From the IMG/VR virus record IMGVR_UViG_3300017770_000043, positions 1-38,465 of that record: a stretch of DNA of 38,465 nucleotides; one strand, given 5' to 3'. The first letter of the stretch is position 1. Each line of letters opens with the position of its first letter. Made by a program: the position numbers and the translations under genes. This DNA comes from a virus. Shown here piece after piece: positions 11,497 to 25,731 of the stretch. The notes under the pieces are model-generated. The model was not told the origin of the DNA and made no database searches. It worked only from the letters and a program-made list of their open reading frames with translations.

Positions 11497-14400
11497 ATGG
11501 ACGAATTAAAGTTTAATGAGGACGTTGGGTTACGAGTTGTAAAACCCGATAATACCGTCCGACCTTTTGATTACTTAGACGTAAACCTAATAGAAAAGGC
11601 AAACACAGATGAGCGGGAGTATTATTCAACTGCTGATGGTATGTTTGAAGAACAAAGGGTAAAAACTAGGAATTTTATAAGAAGTAAATACGGAGCTTCA
11701 TATAGGGCTGAAGGTCAAGACATGACCGACCAAGAAGTTGATTCTTATATTAGAACGTCATGGGGAATTGATCCCGAACAAGATATTGATTATTTTTCTA
11801 TTAATGAAGACTTAAAAGCTCAAGATCAACACTATACAGGAGATTTTGAAGATTTTACTTTTGGAGAGAGAGCTACTGGTTTTTTAGGAGCATTTGCTCA
11901 ATTAATAGAATTTATTGGCGCAGAAATTAATTCTTACAACACTATTCCTGAAGGAATTGACGAGACATACACAATTGAAGGTGGATTTGATAGAGATGCT
12001 TTAAGAAAGCTTATGATTGAATCACAATCGGCTGTTGATGAAAACTCAAAGTTTCTTAGCCAAGAAATGCGTGACAATCTTACAGAGCTTTATGTTAGTG
12101 CCGCAGATGAAAATCCTCTTAATCTTGTAGCTGCTTTTGATGCTTTTTTAGCTAACACGCCTAATTTAGTCTTAGGAACTTTACCTCCGCAAATAGGCAT
12201 GCCGTTAATGATGACTATTGAAAAAAGAGCAGAGTTACCAAACTTTGAAAAATTATTTGGAGTACCAAGTGTTATTGGTAAAGATAACCCTAATATAGAG
12301 ATTTTAAATCAAAAAAGACAAGAGGCTGAGTTATTTGCTTCTGCTTACGGAATAGCTTCCGGGATTGTTGAGTATTATCAAAATAGAGTTATAGCTAAAA
12401 CTGGCGGACAATTTGTTAAGAAGAAACAAAGAGAGTTAATCAACACACTTGGTGGTCATCTTAAAAAGATAGGCATTTTAACTGCTGAAAACATAGGTGA
12501 AGAAATTGTTCAACAAGGTGCTTATAATTTTATATATAATTTAGCTGTTGATTATTCTAACGAAAAATACGGCACTACTGCAAAGAAAGTTAAAATTACT
12601 GAAGGCATGGGCGAAAGCGCATTAATGGCGGGTCGTATTTCTTTTATATCAGCATTTCCTGGTACATTGCGAAGAGGTTTTGCTACTAAAAATTTCATCA
12701 ACAGTAACACTGAAAGATTACTTGAGTTTGGTTTTGATGAACCACGAGCCAAAGAGTATGCAAGAGACTTAGCAAATGCAGCATCTAATCGAGAAGAATA
12801 CGAAGCAGTTACTGAAAGAATTAGATTAGATACTGAACAAATTGATTTAGCTAAAGCCGCTAGAATAGAGATAGAAAAATCTCAACGCATGCATGATGAA
12901 ACAGGTTTAATCACAGCTAATGGCGAGATATTAACGAATAATGATTTTGATAGATTAGCTCTACAATATAACGCTGAACAATTGAGTAATTTAATTGCTG
13001 ATCCAAAAGCCGCTCCTATATTTGTTAATGCTGTTTATGGTGACATGGAGGCTCGTAAAAGTTACAACGATATTATTTTAGGATATGAAAGCGAAAAAAT
13101 GGTAGAAGATTCTGCCCCAGAAGATGAACCAGAAAATGAATTAGGAGTTATTGCTGAAGTCGATGAAAGCGATGAAACTATAGATACTACTAAACCTATC
13201 AATGAGCAATATGAATTACCTGATAATTTAGAAAAATTTGTACAACAAGTTTTAGATGGTCAACATGACGAAAGTATTATTTTAGAAGAAGGCGAGTCTA
13301 TAGAAGATGGCCGTAAGAGAAGCGTTGAAGAAATTTATAAAAAACGTGGAACTAAAATTGACAAGGATGAAACCGAAAAGTCTGAGGATGAAAGAGAACT
13401 GTCTTGGGAAGAAATAAAACAATACGCTAAAGATGTAGGAATAAAATTATCTGGAAAAGGCAGAACAAAAGCTGTTATTAGAGCAGAAGTAGAAGCCGAT
13501 AGAGCTAAATTCTTAAAACAACGAGAAGCAAAAGCTAAAGCAACAGAATTTACATCAGAAAATCCAAGAGCTAACGAGCAATCTCAAAAATTAATTGATA
13601 TATTAAAAAGCGTTGTTCCTAACATTAAAGTTAAATTTGCAGCTAATGATCAAAACTTTAAAGAAATAACCGGGAATATAGCTAGAGCTTTTTACGATAT
13701 GGATGGGACTATTTTAGTTAATCCTAAAAGAGCGAATGCAGGAAGTTTAGCTCATGAAAGTACACACGCTATTTTTCACTCTAGATTAAAAAGTGATGCG
13801 GCTATTAGGTATGCTGCTGCTCGTATTTTAGATGATATGTTAGGCTCTGCTAGACTAACTCCTCAAGCTAGAGCTAGAATGACCAAGTTTAGATCGCTAT
13901 ATATCAGAAACGATCAGTTAGTTGATCTTAAAGAAGAACAGTTAGCTGAATTTGCGGCAATGATGCGTGAGGGAATGCCTGTATTTGAACGATCTTTAAA
14001 GTCAAGAATACAAGATTTTCTTGCTCGTATATTTAAAGGATTTATTAACGTTTCAGATGAAGCAAGAGCTATTCAGCTTTTAGAAGTTATAGCCGGTAAA
14101 GTAGAACGTGGTGAAACTATATTTAAAGAAGATGTATCATTACTTGATGAGATACTAAGCGAATACGATTCTATTCCAGGATATGAATCTGAAGGTGAGA
14201 CTCAATACCCTGCAAGTAAATTCCAACAGTCTTATACTGACCCAGATACAGGTATGACTTTCTCATACGATATTGATAGAGAACAATTTAAACAGCTAGA
14301 AGAAGATGGTTATGTTACTCGTAATTTTAGCCTTAGAGACTTTAATGATAAGTTTATGTTAGTACATCAACCTGATGGAGCTTTTGCAGGAACAATTGAG

Positions 14401-17400
14401 CGTGATGGCGTTGTACTTGTTAGAGGTAAAGGTGGCGTTAACTTTCCGTTATTATTTAATGAGCTAGGATATTTTTGGGCAGGTAGTGGCAAAGATGGCG
14501 ACGACACCAATATGCAAGGGTTTGTTAAAAACTTAAACTCTATGATAGAAGCTAATGGCGGAACTATATTAATGGGATTATCGTCCGCACGTCGGGGAAA
14601 AGAGTTATCTTCTACTATAGGCTCTTTAGGCGTTTTAGATACATTACAAAACTTAGTAAATGACCCAAGTTTTCCATTAACACAAGAGCAATTAAATAAA
14701 GCGTTAATAGACGCTACTAGCAGAAAATATATGGGCAAAAGTAAGCCTAACGATTTTTTAAATATAAATACCAATGATCAAAGTGTTATCAAAAAAATAT
14801 TAGGTGCATTTGAATCTAATTTTCAAGAAAGATCAAACTTTGCTCTTGGTTTGATTAACAGTCTAGCCGATCAAGCAGAGAAAGCCCCTAAACTACAAAA
14901 AGCATTATTTGATTTATATAACAGTATTAAATACGAACAGCCAGAAAAACTTAAAAAACCAGAAAGCGCAAAAAGTTTAAGAGTAAAAGGAAGGGCTTTC
15001 TTTTCAGAGTTTCAAACTGAACCTTTGTTAAAAAACTCTATACCAGGCGAACCATCTATTAATAGATTAACAGGTGGTCAAATATATGCTGTTATAGAAA
15101 TTAATGGCCCTGTAGAATTATTAAAAACACCAGAGTCATTTAATGCACACGAATCTTATCCTTTTGTTGTTGCATCTAAAAATGGAAGCAGACCAGTAGT
15201 TCATATATTAAAAGATAGATATAATAAAATAGATGGTTTTTCTGACGTTCAACAACAAAAAGATAAATCATATATATCTATTGGCAAACCTATTCCAGAA
15301 GATAGAAGGTTAAACGTATTTCCCGAACAAGCGGGTGTTTCTGTTGCACCTTTGCGTGTTATGGTAAAAGGCAAGTCGCAACTATCATCAGATTATATGC
15401 TTAACTTTGATCGCATACCTCAGGTGGTAGAAGCTATTAAGCGTTACTTTGTAGGTGAGATTACATACGAGCAGTTTGTAGAGATACAGCAAAAGTTTGA
15501 TCCTATTCGTAGATTTGATATACTGCCAGAACTACCAACTGCCAAGCAGATGAAAGATGTTCTAGACGAACCTAAAAGACCTAAAGTAAACAAACGACCA
15601 AAAGAAGGTGAAATAGTAAAGTTACGATTAGATATTCCTGCTTACACAAAAAAAGACAAGCAAGGCAATCGTGTAGGTAAATATGTAGTAACAATTCATA
15701 ACGCAAAAGATTTTAAACCTATATCTTATCAAGCAACGGCTAGAGCTAAAAATGTTGAAATGGTATCACCGGCAATAACATCAGCTAAAATTGCTATAGG
15801 TATAAAAAATAAAGACTCAATATCTACAATGCGAGGTGAGTACATAGAGGCTACAGACCAAGAAAACTATGACTTAGGTCTACAAGTAATAAATGATCCT
15901 AACTGGATTCAGATTGGATTTAACCCCTTCAGACGCTCGTTCTTCTATATTAGAGAGGGCAATAAGGTTGGCATGCCTGTGCTTAGTGCAAACGAAGTTG
16001 TGCAGATCGGTGGATTAGTATTTGCTAAGAACCCGGAAATAGTAACACTAGATCATCCTAAATTCCGTTTGCAAAAAGAATCACATAAAGAAGCATTAGG
16101 TATTCTTCGTGATGATGCTAAATTCCAATTAGATGAAAACGAAAGAGTAAAAGCAGCATTTTTCTTTGCAGGAATGGGTACTGCTGAAGCTGCATTATTA
16201 AGAAAAGCAGGCATTAATGTTGTTCAAACCGCAGAACTTGAGCAACCTATTATTGATTTATACAATCTTACTCACGGCACTGCTGAAATTCCTGTTGATA
16301 TTTTAGAGCTAGACCCTAACGATCTTGTTAAAAAGATGGTTAAATTTATACATATGTCACCACCATGCCAAGCATTTAGCGCAGCTAGAGAAAAAGGCGC
16401 AGTAACTCCTGAGATGTATGAACTTGAAATGAAGATTGCCCGCAAGTTAGCTGAAATTATTACAATAGTAAAACCTGATAATTTGACTATAGAAAATGCT
16501 CCTGCTTATCAAGACTCAGAACAATATGCAGTTATTAAAAAAGTATTAGAAAAAGAAGGTTACTTTATTCGGGAACAAACTCCTGATGCTCAAAACTACG
16601 GAGGTAACTCTAGTCGTAAACGCTTAATTGTTCAAGCATCGCTTACTCCTTTAAAAGAAGAGCCTAAGACTAACAGATCAGGCGATTGGTATCCTGCTTT
16701 AGAACCTTTCTTAAAAGAAGCTCCTGTTGATGAGCTAATGCAATACACAGGTGGAAAAGAAGGCGGTTTAACTAAAAATGTAGTAAATTTATTAAATAAC
16801 ATAGCATCTAAAAAATATGATGCAAATGTAGCTTATGTTAATCCTGGAGGCGATGGTCAGTTTAGACCTCAAGGTAGAGCAGGTAATGCGTTAACGGCTA
16901 ACTTTATTTATGACCCTAAAAAGAGAAAGCAAGGGGTAAAAGAAAAGTTAAGAACAGAAGATGGTTCTTTATATGGTTCATCTGCCGTTATGCGTGTAGC
17001 ACTTCCTGTGCGTAAGTTAGTAGATGAGTTGGGGGCAAAAGCTGTAGCTAAACAGTATGGAGCTTCCGTTAAACAAATTAATGACGCTTACTATGGTACA
17101 GGGTTCTTATTTAAACGTGGCACTACACCAATGTATTTGGCGTACATGAATCTACCTACCGATACAATTATGTCTGATAACACACGTTTGAATCGAGCTG
17201 TTCTTGGAAATGGTATTCAAGGTGTAATTACTAGAGAATTTATTGAGCCTATGATTGGTAAGCCTCAGTTAAGTGATGATTACATTAATGAAAAATTAGC
17301 TGAAATAGATAATGATAAATTAAATAAATCAAAAGAAGAAACTAAAGCTATCATTGATGATATAAACGAAGCTCCGTTAGAAGAAATTGATGAAGATATG

Positions 17401-20400
17401 CCAATACCAAGTCAAGAAGACTTTTATAATGGGCCTATGTATCAAGAAGACTTTATTAGGGATGAAGAGCGTATTATTGGGTCTACTAAATTAACACACA
17501 TGGAAATAGATAGACTTCTAAAAGCTATAGGAGTTGCCGGGTTATCATTACCCGCTTCTCAAAGACAAACAACACTGGTAGCAAATGCTGCTAGAGATTT
17601 TAATTTAAACCAGGTTTTAGATTTAGCAAAACAAATTTTAGATTCTGATGATATGATTCATACAGATGCTCAACACGCTTCTTTTGTTCTAGCTATTGTA
17701 AAACTTAAAAACCAATACGAGCTTGTTAGAACTTCCATAGAAGAAGGTAAAGCTTATAGCACTGATGTTGATTTGCCTAACACCATGGAAGAAATACTGT
17801 CGGCTATGAACACAATTTTAAGAGCTGATGCTAAAGGAGGCTCAAAGGCGGGTAGTGCCTTAGTCGCTAGAAGAATAATGGTTGGGCAAGATTACTCTGT
17901 GCAAGGTGTAACAAAACGAGCTACACAAACCGCCAGAGGAACTCTTAAAGACGAAGATTTAAAGAATGTACTTGATGCCCAAAGTAAGTGGGAAGAAACA
18001 AATAATAAAATACAAGACGTTATAAGAAAAGAATCTGCTAACTCTTCTGAGACAGACGTTGCTAATAGCAAAAAATTTATTGATGATAATAAAAAACAAC
18101 GAGGCAAGGTCAAAAAGCAAAAGTTGTCTAATAAACAAAGATTAATCAATAAAATGCGTGAGTCAGGCGTAAATATTGATGGGTTTGGTAAAAACCAACT
18201 TGCAGATATATCTGTTGATCTAGCAAGAAACATAAGAGAGATGGCTAGAATACTTGTTATTGAAGATGGCTATGATGATCTTAATGAAATTGTAGATGTG
18301 ATAAGAGGATTATTGCCAGACGTTAGCTTAAAAGATGTTCTTGGCTCAATCTCTGGTCGTATACAAAGAATACCACAAACCCCATCAGAAGCTCAAAACA
18401 CTTTAAAAAGACTAACACTTCAGTCTGATTTAATGGTTCAAATTAATAATGGCTTAGATAAAATATTTGATCCATTAAGAAAGCAAGCACCTAAAGACCT
18501 AGAGATAATGGCTCTTAGGGAACAACTTAACGAACTTAAATCTGTAGCTAGACAGAACGCTAACGATGTTCAACAAATTGAGCGTATGTTAACTCAGATC
18601 GAATACTTAGAAAAACTAATAGATGAAGTATTAATTAAAGGGGAACGATCTACAGACTTAGTTCCAAAGAAAGAGCCAAAGAAAAAGAGAGAAGATGTAA
18701 AAGCTGTTGAACAAAAACTGTTTGTTAAGCGAGCAGAACTTAAAGCTGCTGATAAAATAGTTCTTTTAAAACAAATTATAGAGTATGGAGAACCTCCTGT
18801 AATACCTGGTATTAAACGTGAAGCACAATCAGAACGATTAGATTTATTAAGAATCGAGATAGCTAATCTTGAGCAAGAAATAAAAGATGAGAAAAAGCGC
18901 AAATCTGATGCTGCCAAGAAAGCACAAATAAAAGCTGACCAAGAAGCTAGGTTAGAGTCTTTGATAGGCCAAGTTGAGGGTTGGTATAGAGACAATGTAG
19001 CACCTCGTAAACAAGCAGAGATAAACGATACGCAAAAATCTATAAAAGAGCAGCAACGACTAATTAAACAGCAAGATAGAATAGCTGAACTTAGTGAGAT
19101 ATTAAGAACAGGTGTGTTGCCTGAGAAAGCTAACCGTCAAATTAAAGACGAAACAGAATTTTCTGAAACTATAGATAACCTTCAGGAAGAACTTAAACAA
19201 CAAGAGTGGTATAGGCAAATTAAGAAAGCTGAATTTGAGCAAAAAAGAATAGCTCAAGTAACTGCTAAAATTGAAGAGCAACGTAGAGTTATTGATGAAA
19301 ATGATTTATCTGACTTTATGACTCCCAAAGAAAAAAGTGAAATACAAAGCCCGGAGTTAAAAGCGTTACTAACAGAGCAGAGAGCTAACGAACGTATTAT
19401 TAGAAAGAAAATACAAGAGCTTAAACCAAGAACTAAGTTAGAACAATTTGGCGATGTTATGTCACTAGGTCGTGCCTTTATGGCTACAGGTGATATGTCT
19501 GGATTTCTTAAACAAGGGTTTGGTTTAGCTATTAGGCATCCTAAGTTAGCAGCCCAGGCTATGTCTAAAGCAATAAAAGCTTTTGTAGACCCAGAATTTG
19601 CTGAACAAGTAATGATGGAACTAGAGTCTCAGGATATTCAAGTTATTAGAGAACAATCAGGTTTGTTTTTTGGTAATTTAGATACTGGTATGATTGACTC
19701 AGAAGAGCAGTTTAGTTCAAACGCATTGCAGTGGATATATAAAAACACTGGATTGTATGGTAAAACTGTTGAAACTGTTATGGGTGCATCTGAAAGAAAC
19801 ATGGTTGTATTCTTAAATCTAATGAGAGCAGGGGCTTTTGATATATATTACAATGCCAACCCTAAAGCTACGGAAAGAGAGTTAAAATCTTATGCACATT
19901 GGATTAACACTAGTAGCGGTCGAGGTGACTTAGGTAACGCAGAGGGTGCAATCCAAGCTTTATCAGTATTGGCTTTCTCTCCACGTTTTGCCGCATCTAG
20001 GTTTTTAATGCCATTAGAAGCTGCTTACAAAATAGGAAAAGGTATACGAGGTAAAGAAGAAGGTGATGCTGAAGTTGCAAAAGAAATTGCAAAACAATAT
20101 TTAGCTTTGTATGGGATGGGGGCTGTAACCTTTACGCTTGCGATTATGGCGGGAGGATCAGTTAACTTAGACGAGCCAGAAGAATCTGACTTTTTAAAGA
20201 TAACATTTGGAAACACGAAAATTGATATATGGGCAGGGCTTGGGCCTAACAAACGATTGTTTTCATTGTACATGGATAGCATATTTAAACAGATTAGAGG
20301 TGAGGAAGTAACTGCTAATATACCTACTAAAACTATAAATACACTTGTTAAATATAAAGCTTCCCCCTGGATTAGTGGATCATTAGAAGCAATAGGTGGC

Positions 20401-20613
20401 AAACGTTATGTTAGTGGAGAAAAAATAACCATCCCGGAAATTATATTAGAGAGAGCTTTCCCTTTAACAGCTTCTAGTGCTTATCAAAACTGGAGAGAAG
20501 ATGCAACGACAGGAGAAATCATTACTGAGTTCGGTGGAGAGTTCTTTGGTTTAGGTGTTAGCATCGAACAACCTAAGAAAAAAACAAAAAATAGAAGGTT
20601 AAGGGCTTTGTGA
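11497..20613 (+). CDS. Giant polyvalent virion protein (gp16 position) with metallopeptidase and C5 methyltransferase domains
   Basis: 3038 residues, about a quarter of the window, one base after the gp15-like stop and before the fibre promoter: the position of T7 gp16, the last core protein ejected. Visible parts: (a) about 740-830, H753-E-S-T-H757, an HExxH zinc site, with E-E-Q-L-A-E-F (E814/E818) as possible third ligand; (b) about 1410-1540, a segment ending W-I-Q-I-G-F-N-P-F-R-R-S-F-F-Y typical of large polyvalent phage proteins; (c) about 1552-1925, a full cytosine-C5 methyltransferase: motif I F-F-A-G-M-G (1556-1561), P-C1624-Q, E1666-N-A-P, Q1699...R1707-K-R1709, motif X G-N-G (1904-1906); (d) about 2330-2650, charged coiled coils; (e) about 2650-3038, a hydrophobic-helix domain resembling the LPD38-type C-terminal domain. 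No lytic transglycosylase motif found. Probably ejected, to protect or prepare DNA in the cell; this is inference. Confidence 0.82.
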   Translation: MDELKFNEDVGLRVVKPDNTVRPFDYLDVNLIEKANTDEREYYSTADGMFEEQRVKTRNFIRSKYGASYRAEGQDMTDQEVDSYIRTSWGIDPEQDIDYFSINEDLKAQDQHYTGDFEDFTFGERATGFLGAFAQLIEFIGAEINSYNTIPEGIDETYTIEGGFDRDALRKLMIESQSAVDENSKFLSQEMRDNLTELYVSAADENPLNLVAAFDAFLANTPNLVLGTLPPQIGMPLMMTIEKRAELPNFEKLFGVPSVIGKDNPNIEILNQKRQEAELFASAYGIASGIVEYYQNRVIAKTGGQFVKKKQRELINTLGGHLKKIGILTAENIGEEIVQQGAYNFIYNLAVDYSNEKYGTTAKKVKITEGMGESALMAGRISFISAFPGTLRRGFATKNFINSNTERLLEFGFDEPRAKEYARDLANAASNREEYEAVTERIRLDTEQIDLAKAARIEIEKSQRMHDETGLITANGEILTNNDFDRLALQYNAEQLSNLIADPKAAPIFVNAVYGDMEARKSYNDIILGYESEKMVEDSAPEDEPENELGVIAEVDESDETIDTTKPINEQYELPDNLEKFVQQVLDGQHDESIILEEGESIEDGRKRSVEEIYKKRGTKIDKDETEKSEDERELSWEEIKQYAKDVGIKLSGKGRTKAVIRAEVEADRAKFLKQREAKAKATEFTSENPRANEQSQKLIDILKSVVPNIKVKFAANDQNFKEITGNIARAFYDMDGTILVNPKRANAGSLAHESTHAIFHSRLKSDAAIRYAAARILDDMLGSARLTPQARARMTKFRSLYIRNDQLVDLKEEQLAEFAAMMREGMPVFERSLKSRIQDFLARIFKGFINVSDEARAIQLLEVIAGKVERGETIFKEDVSLLDEILSEYDSIPGYESEGETQYPASKFQQSYTDPDTGMTFSYDIDREQFKQLEEDGYVTRNFSLRDFNDKFMLVHQPDGAFAGTIERDGVVLVRGKGGVNFPLLFNELGYFWAGSGKDGDDTNMQGFVKNLNSMIEANGGTILMGLSSARRGKELSSTIGSLGVLDTLQNLVNDPSFPLTQEQLNKALIDATSRKYMGKSKPNDFLNINTNDQSVIKKILGAFESNFQERSNFALGLINSLADQAEKAPKLQKALFDLYNSIKYEQPEKLKKPESAKSLRVKGRAFFSEFQTEPLLKNSIPGEPSINRLTGGQIYAVIEINGPVELLKTPESFNAHESYPFVVASKNGSRPVVHILKDRYNKIDGFSDVQQQKDKSYISIGKPIPEDRRLNVFPEQAGVSVAPLRVMVKGKSQLSSDYMLNFDRIPQVVEAIKRYFVGEITYEQFVEIQQKFDPIRRFDILPELPTAKQMKDVLDEPKRPKVNKRPKEGEIVKLRLDIPAYTKKDKQGNRVGKYVVTIHNAKDFKPISYQATARAKNVEMVSPAITSAKIAIGIKNKDSISTMRGEYIEATDQENYDLGLQVINDPNWIQIGFNPFRRSFFYIREGNKVGMPVLSANEVVQIGGLVFAKNPEIVTLDHPKFRLQKESHKEALGILRDDAKFQLDENERVKAAFFFAGMGTAEAALLRKAGINVVQTAELEQPIIDLYNLTHGTAEIPVDILELDPNDLVKKMVKFIHMSPPCQAFSAAREKGAVTPEMYELEMKIARKLAEIITIVKPDNLTIENAPAYQDSEQYAVIKKVLEKEGYFIREQTPDAQNYGGNSSRKRLIVQASLTPLKEEPKTNRSGDWYPALEPFLKEAPVDELMQYTGGKEGGLTKNVVNLLNNIASKKYDANVAYVNPGGDGQFRPQGRAGNALTANFIYDPKKRKQGVKEKLRTEDGSLYGSSAVMRVALPVRKLVDELGAKAVAKQYGASVKQINDAYYGTGFLFKRGTTPMYLAYMNLPTDTIMSDNTRLNRAVLGNGIQGVITREFIEPMIGKPQLSDDYINEKLAEIDNDKLNKSKEETKAIIDDINEAPLEEIDEDMPIPSQEDFYNGPMYQEDFIRDEERIIGSTKLTHMEIDRLLKAIGVAGLSLPASQRQTTLVANAARDFNLNQVLDLAKQILDSDDMIHTDAQHASFVLAIVKLKNQYELVRTSIEEGKAYSTDVDLPNTMEEILSAMNTILRADAKGGSKAGSALVARRIMVGQDYSVQGVTKRATQTARGTLKDEDLKNVLDAQSKWEETNNKIQDVIRKESANSSETDVANSKKFIDDNKKQRGKVKKQKLSNKQRLINKMRESGVNIDGFGKNQLADISVDLARNIREMARILVIEDGYDDLNEIVDVIRGLLPDVSLKDVLGSISGRIQRIPQTPSEAQNTLKRLTLQSDLMVQINNGLDKIFDPLRKQAPKDLEIMALREQLNELKSVARQNANDVQQIERMLTQIEYLEKLIDEVLIKGERSTDLVPKKEPKKKREDVKAVEQKLFVKRAELKAADKIVLLKQIIEYGEPPVIPGIKREAQSERLDLLRIEIANLEQEIKDEKKRKSDAAKKAQIKADQEARLESLIGQVEGWYRDNVAPRKQAEINDTQKSIKEQQRLIKQQDRIAELSEILRTGVLPEKANRQIKDETEFSETIDNLQEELKQQEWYRQIKKAEFEQKRIAQVTAKIEEQRRVIDENDLSDFMTPKEKSEIQSPELKALLTEQRANERIIRKKIQELKPRTKLEQFGDVMSLGRAFMATGDMSGFLKQGFGLAIRHPKLAAQAMSKAIKAFVDPEFAEQVMMELESQDIQVIREQSGLFFGNLDTGMIDSEEQFSSNALQWIYKNTGLYGKTVETVMGASERNMVVFLNLMRAGAFDIYYNANPKATERELKSYAHWINTSSGRGDLGNAEGAIQALSVLAFSPRFAASRFLMPLEAAYKIGKGIRGKEEGDAEVAKEIAKQYLALYGMGAVTFTLAIMAGGSVNLDEPEESDFLKITFGNTKIDIWAGLGPNKRLFSLYMDSIFKQIRGEEVTANIPTKTINTLVKYKASPWISGSLEAIGGKRYVSGEKITIPEIILERAFPLTASSAYQNWREDATTGEIITEFGGEFFGLGVSIEQPKKKTKNRRLRAL

Positions 20614-25376: not shown

Positions 25377-25541
25377 ATGTCTATGTATAAAGTTGTTGAC
25401 TCGAAAGGCAACGAAACAGTAGTTGAATTATCAGAATATAATAGAGGAAAAGTTTTAGACAAGGCATGCAAGCAGATGTACGGAAGTTCTACGATAGAGT
25501 TAATGATTGGTCATTTTAGAATAACACCGCTAAGTTCTTGA
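25377..25541 (+). CDS. Hypothetical 54-residue protein
   Basis: The ATG at 25377 follows a perfect GGAGG (AACGGAGGACGC). The product begins M-S-M-Y-K-V-V-D-S-K-G-N-E-T-V-V-E-L and continues as a small mixed alpha/beta domain. Its stop TGA lies within the TTGACA of the next promoter. No family recognised; it is the last gene of the rightward late region before the riboswitch unit. Confidence 0.6.
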   Translation: MSMYKVVDSKGNETVVELSEYNRGKVLDKACKQMYGSSTIELMIGHFRITPLSS

Positions 25542-25565
25542 CAATGAAATTAATTTTTATATATT
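25538..25565 (+). promoter_or_regulatory. Sigma70-type promoter of the riboswitch unit
   Basis: TTGACA (25538-25543), a 16-base spacer and TATATT (25560-25565). The predicted start at about 25572 coincides with the first bases of the riboswitch, which strongly supports the assignment. Confidence 0.75.
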
Positions 25566-25574
25566 GGTATTAAG

Positions 25575-25630
25575 ATCGTTCAAGCTCTTGCTCGGAAGTA
25601 GTGCATAGTGTACGAAGGAACGCACTAACA
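25575..25630 (+). promoter_or_regulatory. Glutamine riboswitch (Downstream-peptide / glnA class)
   Basis: P1 is CGTTC (25577-25581) with GAACG (25618-25622). P2 is AGC-TCTT-GCT followed by the conserved CGGAAGTAG (25593-25601). P3 is GTGCA-TAG-TGTAC (25601-25613). The junction then reads CGAAGGAACGC, the hallmark 3' half of glutamine aptamers (glnA and Downstream-peptide RNAs). GCACTA (25622-25627) can pair with TAGTGC (25599-25604) as an alternative to P3 and P1, a plausible switch, with GGAGG of the peptide gene just downstream at 25633. By analogy with the family, ligand would be L-glutamine. Recognised from the consensus by eye. Confidence 0.9.
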
Positions 25631-25644
25631 TTGGAGGTATTACA

Positions 25645-25707
25645 ATGGAAGTGACTCTCAACTATCGAGGCTCGACTTACGTTAAAGTAATCAAGCTAGA
25701 CAAATAA
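25645..25707 (+). CDS. 20-residue riboswitch-controlled peptide (YRG type)
   Basis: Starts 8 bases after GGAGG and ends 3 bases before a terminator stem. The peptide M-E-V-T-L-N-Y-R-G-S-T-Y-V-K-V-I-K-L-D-K carries the L-x-Y-R-G-x-x-Y core seen in the short cyanobacterial peptides downstream of this riboswitch class and in the DUF4278 family. Cyanobacterial glutamine riboswitches control inhibitors of glutamine synthetase and related nitrogen-regulatory small proteins, so a regulatory peptide acting on host nitrogen assimilation is the natural guess. Too short for most gene finders. Confidence 0.85.
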   Translation: MEVTLNYRGSTYVKVIKLDK

Positions 25708-25731
25708 AAAAGGGGCGATTAAGCCCCTCTT
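25706..25731. terminator. Bidirectional intrinsic terminator between convergent transcripts
   Basis: AGGGGC (25711-25716), loop GATTAA, GCCCCT (25723-25728). Read rightward it is followed by CTTT. Read leftward it is followed by a run of six T, making it strong for the leftward replication transcript. It separates the 20-residue peptide gene from the convergent leftward genes. Confidence 0.88.

Follow-up and report, generated by a model that had tools for sequence, protein, structure and literature searches.

A cassette consisting of a promoter, a glutamine riboswitch aptamer, a 20-codon open reading frame (ORF) and a terminator-like hairpin was identified on the + strand of a virus record. 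The record was analysed as a whole and is called the window here (38,465 nucleotides, 38.5 kb; GC content 38.7%). Its late (structural) operon lies on the + strand and its replication operon on the minus strand, and they run towards each other and meet at about 25.3-25.9 kb, with the cassette sitting within that convergent gap. The neighbour on the 5' side, outside the cassette, is an open frame of 54 aa on the + strand (25377-25541) with no Pfam match, the TGA of which overlaps the -35 box of the cassette promoter. BLAST of the cassette region against named phages gave no matches. One neighbour gene is 47% identical to a gene of Verrucomicrobia phage P8625, while the capsid (about 27% identity) and tail B (about 38%) are nearest, remotely, to those of Pelagibacter phages. 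These relationships, and the frequency of the aptamer in SAR11, SAR86 and SAR116 genomes, do not support the cyanobacterial host that an earlier reading of the sequence alone had implied. The same 38-kb phage contains an ORF of 3038 aa (11497-20613) between the tail genes and a weakly laminin-G-like protein.

The aptamer (25575-25626, +) is a type-1 glutamine riboswitch (RF01739), scoring 46.7 bits against a cut-off of 35 (E = 2.8e-07), and RF01739 was the sole Rfam family above cut-off across the whole window in cmscan. This score bears out the glutamine class proposed in the sequence-only reading; membership of the Downstream-peptide or glutamine-II family (RF01704), also proposed there, was rejected, as a covariance search of the window with that model gave no match even at E <= 10. 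The stems P1 (25577-25581/25618-25622), P2 (25583-25585/25590-25592) and P3 (25601-25604/25610-25613) span positions 25577-25622 (+) and form a three-way junction with invariant CGGAAGUA and GAAGGAACG, as is characteristic of RF01739. When 19 leaders were aligned, P1 showed no variation and every pair of P2 and P3 had compensatory changes, with 100% of cells paired. Sliding of the stem partners, used as a control, abolished the compensation signal in P2, P3 and the start-codon hairpin described below. A long P2 insertion of about 40 nt, which contains a hairpin itself, was observed in L299, L301 and L302, where the RF01739 score is still just above the cut-off.

A sigma-70-like promoter, TTGACA-16-TATATT (25538-25565, +), agrees with 11 of 12 consensus positions and is top-ranked among 13 promoter-like sites in 3 kb. 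It is present at 25538 as first read, and its box is conserved: TTGA[CT] occurs 37-41 nt 5' of the aptamer in 27 of the 36 related cassettes described below, compared with a mean of 2.6 and a maximum of 8 in shuffles. Directly after the ORF lies the terminator-like hairpin AGGGGC-GATTAA-GCCCCT (25711-25728, +), and a hairpin of at least 5 pairs 3' of the stop codon is found in 31 of the 36 cassettes (shuffles, mean 1.6). The immediate terminator described earlier thus stands as a conserved hairpin directly after the ORF, but not as a strong + strand terminator in the window, where a strong T-run is present on the minus strand only, on which the hairpin would terminate the convergent gene. With the + strand tail CTTTACATA, the hairpin would be a weak or bidirectional terminator in the window record; the + strand T-run is better in other cassette groups. 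The statement that the unit is transcriptionally isolated from all neighbours holds in so far as the unit is self-contained, but full isolation is too strong a claim, since the -35 box overlaps the stop of the same-strand upstream ORF and read-through into the cassette is possible.

The ORF (25645-25707, +) encodes the microprotein MEVTLNYRGSTYVKVIKLDK, which contains a single YRG (DUF4278-like) unit in 20 codons. It was found as originally read and is conserved in relatives under purifying selection. Calculated on codons 1-16 of 26 distinct ORFs, pN/pS is 0.29, the entropies at codon positions 1, 2 and 3 are 0.60, 0.36 and 1.11, respectively, and the residues Y7, R8, G9, Y12 and K14 are invariant although their codons vary. 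Together these values indicate that the ORF is almost certainly translated and under selection. A Pfam search with the 20-aa peptide, whose length is too small for that database, gave no match; relatives with two to three YRG units reach or approach the DUF4278 (PF14105) gathering score. The peptide conforms to the pattern (L/V)xYRGxxY of a YRG unit, and the YRG and the following Y are invariant in 16 distinct peptides. Profile-profile comparison matched the peptide to the YRG units of DUF4278-like proteins over 12 columns (E = 2.3e-05, probability 76). Judged from these alignments, the cassette peptide is one YRG unit of DUF4278. When a phage relative with three units was modelled with AlphaFold2, each YRG formed a beta-hairpin of modest confidence (pLDDT about 70), and a PDB fold search with the YRG model returned no meaningful match. 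DUF4278 is the main partner domain of cyanobacterial glutamine riboswitches, whose targets include the GS-inactivating factor IF17. In IF17 it constitutes the N-terminal, stabilising half, which affects stability and affinity and is dispensable for inhibition of glutamine synthetase (GS) itself, while the other half is the main GS-binding part (PMC6316151). The homology with DUF4278 and IF17 makes a nitrogen-assimilation target plausible for the peptide.

The start codon of the microprotein is predicted to be paired in a hairpin, CATTG(GAGGTATTA)CAATG (25629-25647, +), which is the proposed expression platform. The Shine-Dalgarno sequence GGAGG, present at 25633-25637 (+) as noted before, lies mostly within its loop. 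In the 19 leaders, the variable pair of this hairpin is GC, UA or AU, with 10 two-sided changes, and the variants CATTG/CAATG, CATAG/CTATG and CATG/CATG are found. This covarying hairpin over the start codon is a likelier expression platform than the alternative TAGTGC/GCACTA pairing put forward in the sequence-only reading, which shows no compensation in 19 sequences and has all six pairs in the window only. Relatives sharing an identical downstream leader have TAGTAC instead of TAGTGC, and the fact that the pairing can be written in the window reflects a G.U wobble in P3. Another candidate, the outer stem CACT:AGTG, is 92% paired but lacks compensation and depends on ORF codons; it directly adjoins P1 in the window and is missing in some cassette groups. 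That P1 and the start hairpin exclude each other was likewise rejected, as ViennaRNA pairs the AUG with and without P1 in nearly all cassettes. Since the start hairpin folds in either case, ligand coupling would have to go beyond simple mutual exclusion, and the ON or OFF direction has to be inferred; no ligand-driven switch was apparent in a folding model of the leaders. The nucleotides just 3' of P1 are complementary to the Shine-Dalgarno and start region above swapped controls in 80 distinct viral and 34 bacterial leaders, where swaps as high as the real complementarity occurred in 1/2000 and 0/2000, respectively. In cyanobacterial DUF4278 and GifA-like leaders, CGCCUC...GAGGCG directly adjoins P1. 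ON is the best inference for the cassette, because the gifB glutamine riboswitch of cyanobacteria is described as activated by glutamine (PMC6316151, PMC11288750).

Related viral contigs were gathered by a pattern scan and by scans with two neighbouring genes. This gave 36 distinct cassettes, including that of the window, each encoding one YRG peptide 17-20 residues long (one outlier, L424, was set aside); the source records are related, so the cassette counts are not independent events. The cassette architecture is kept in this set, and RF01739 scores above cut-off in 29 of 48 related records searched whole, many of which are fragments. Homologues of the window's genes served as reference points for placing the cassette. 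The cassette lies at the late/replication junction in late-gene sense in the window and in L453, L217, L206, L437, L446 and L223. At the same junction it is inverted, in replication-gene sense, in L431, L220, L130, L131, L132 and L441, as well as in L213, L234, L241, L273 and others, and it is located elsewhere in the genome in L215, L228, L430, L236 and L440. This inversion and relocation agree with the portable cassette of the earlier description. The unit has its own promoter and terminator and a variable site, with a weak + strand T-run in the window, and on these sequence features its behaviour fits that of a portable phage moron. The exact cassette was found in none of the bacterial genomes searched (SAR86 order, 0/203; SAR116 order, 0/136; SAR11 order, 0/162).

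The aptamer also occurs outside the single-YRG group. The first 120 aptamer-bearing viral stretches (L002-L121) yielded 105 distinct leader-peptide combinations. YRG proteins account for only part of them; BLAST clustering gave at least 10 unrelated non-YRG families of about 28-78 residues, and none of those tested against Pfam scored above cut-off. Examples from marine phages are the MTLWxxYCRR, MDRFTFWCFQKLIKQH, GTSGYVVKHG and YITDNPFYP types. The net charge is at least +2 in 102 of 102 distinct viral peptides behind the aptamer (mean +6.4), a value reached by 53% of the 247 small ORFs that were taken from the same contigs as controls (mean +2.0). Among the basic small proteins behind the aptamer, none is smaller than the single-YRG peptide. 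IF7 and IF17 act on GS by an electrostatic mode (PMC6316151), with which the uniformly basic viral peptides are in line. In the other phage families the promoter box is mildly enriched (11/87 against 5.2) and terminators clearly so (21/103 against 0.6); given the mild enrichment of the box, it is the single-YRG group in which a fully self-contained layout has the best support.

In bacterial genome contigs (L305-L423), RF01739 is frequent in SAR11, SAR86, SAR116 and other marine proteobacteria, whereas a review describes glutamine riboswitches as restricted to cyanobacteria (PMC6316151). The aptamer is found in tandem before amt and also before glnA in SAR11, and one SAR86 genome has 7 RF01739 matches. 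The DUF4278 domain has been described for cyanobacteria. In four SAR86/Porticoccaceae-type contigs (L333, L348, L385 and L406), YRG (DUF4278-like) proteins of three units are encoded behind a glutamine aptamer. Blastn hits to the aptamer in cultured T4-like cyanophages were not RF01739 in the four regions inspected and were left uncounted.

Several known systems resemble the cassette in part. The cyanobacterial type-1 riboswitch (RF01739) before gifB or DUF4278 genes has the aptamer family, the P1-adjoining Shine-Dalgarno hairpin and a small downstream YRG protein in common with it. The cassette differs in lying in a phage with structural genes nearest those of Pelagibacter phages, in encoding one unit of 17-20 residues instead of the two or three YRG units of cyanobacterial DUF4278 proteins, and in having its own promoter and terminator and being mobile within phage genomes. 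The Downstream-peptide or type-2 glutamine riboswitches (RF01704) precede ORFs of 17-100 aa in marine picocyanobacteria (PMC2864571, PMC6316151); both systems have a very short ORF behind a glutamine switch, but the cassette aptamer is of type 1. The T4-like cyanophages S-SSM5, P-TIM40 and P-TIM68 have annotated DUF4278 proteins and thus also encode a small YRG protein. Theirs has two units and about 47 aa and lies near nrdB/talC or thymidylate synthase, whereas stand-alone mobility is a feature of the cassette. The YRG gene of P-TIM68 follows an RF01739 match of 35.4 bits, just over cut-off. In this cultured Prochlorococcus phage (L463:1378-1641), a type-2 aptamer below threshold and the type-1 aptamer just above it stand in tandem, ahead of the 47-aa YRG protein and of a strong terminator. 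The methylophage Melnitz is, like the window, a marine phage with a glutamine riboswitch, which is linked there to a tmRNA gene (PMC9004378) and not to a YRG microprotein.

The family and structure of the aptamer, the coding selection on the ORF, the conservation of the promoter and 3' hairpin and the mobility of the unit are established at the level of sequence comparison. The explanation we favour, with moderate confidence, is a phage moron with a sigma-70 promoter, a glutamine riboswitch, a YRG microprotein and a terminator, which is switched ON by glutamine and the peptide of which acts on host nitrogen assimilation. The transcript would start just 5' of the aptamer, and the hairpin occluding the start codon would hold translation low. 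Binding of glutamine would stabilise P1 beside the start hairpin and favour translation, as for cyanobacterial gifB. The microprotein, one YRG beta-hairpin, would be active when glutamine is plentiful and would most likely bind host GS, PII or a partner electrostatically, so that nitrogen assimilation may be slowed, or decoupled from host control, during infection. The ON layout is supported because the cyanobacterial DUF4278 and GifA-like leaders share the P1-adjoining Shine-Dalgarno hairpin. The same cassette may instead follow the opposite logic, in which glutamine stacks P1 on the start hairpin, translation is turned OFF and the peptide is made at low glutamine. The direct contact of CACT:AGTG with P1 in the window, the retention of the start hairpin in the aptamer-enforced fold and the SAR11 aptamers before glnA and amt, where OFF is expected, point this way. 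We consider it rather unlikely, given that the layout is that of the cyanobacterial leaders, that gifB, the tested case, is ON (PMC6316151, PMC11288750), and that the adjoining outer stem is absent from some groups.

The nature of the product can also be read in other ways. That the microprotein is a true GS-inactivating factor of the IF7/IF17 type is improbable: the riboswitch class is common to both, DUF4278 is the N-terminal domain of IF17, and the peptides are basic with an invariant Arg in YRG, but the peptide lacks IF7-like sequence, the site of the three key arginines, and the DUF4278 part of IF17 governs stability and affinity rather than basic inhibition (PMC6316151). It is very improbable that the ORF is a leader peptide or by-product and that the RNA itself matters as a glutamine sensor or sponge. 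The ORF is indeed very short, and the ends of the peptide are less well conserved than the core of the aptamer; against this stand the purifying selection with synonymous change at the YRG codons, the covarying start-codon hairpin and, the next gene being convergent, the lack of any downstream + strand target for attenuation.

The production of phage progeny requires nitrogen. The presence of the same cassette at varied sites and orientations in related phages suggests that phages read the host nitrogen supply, and they may interfere with it. With a portable metabolite-gated microprotein gene, the sensing of glutamine by a virus through RNA can be tested directly. The cassette peptide represents the minimal form of DUF4278, and at 17-20 residues this natural version would be easy to synthesise as a probe of what the domain does. 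More tentatively, a glutamine riboswitch joined to at least 10 unrelated basic small proteins could be a common device of marine phages of several kinds. The proteins may be regulators, borrowed or convergently evolved, with an affinity for acidic surfaces on nitrogen-assimilation enzymes of the host. Through them a phage might respond to glutamine synthesis during infection, or cap it, and might do so in cyanobacteria and also in heterotrophs (SAR11, SAR86). The survey as a whole points to glutamine-gated basic small proteins as a common feature of marine phages and of hosts other than cyanobacteria.
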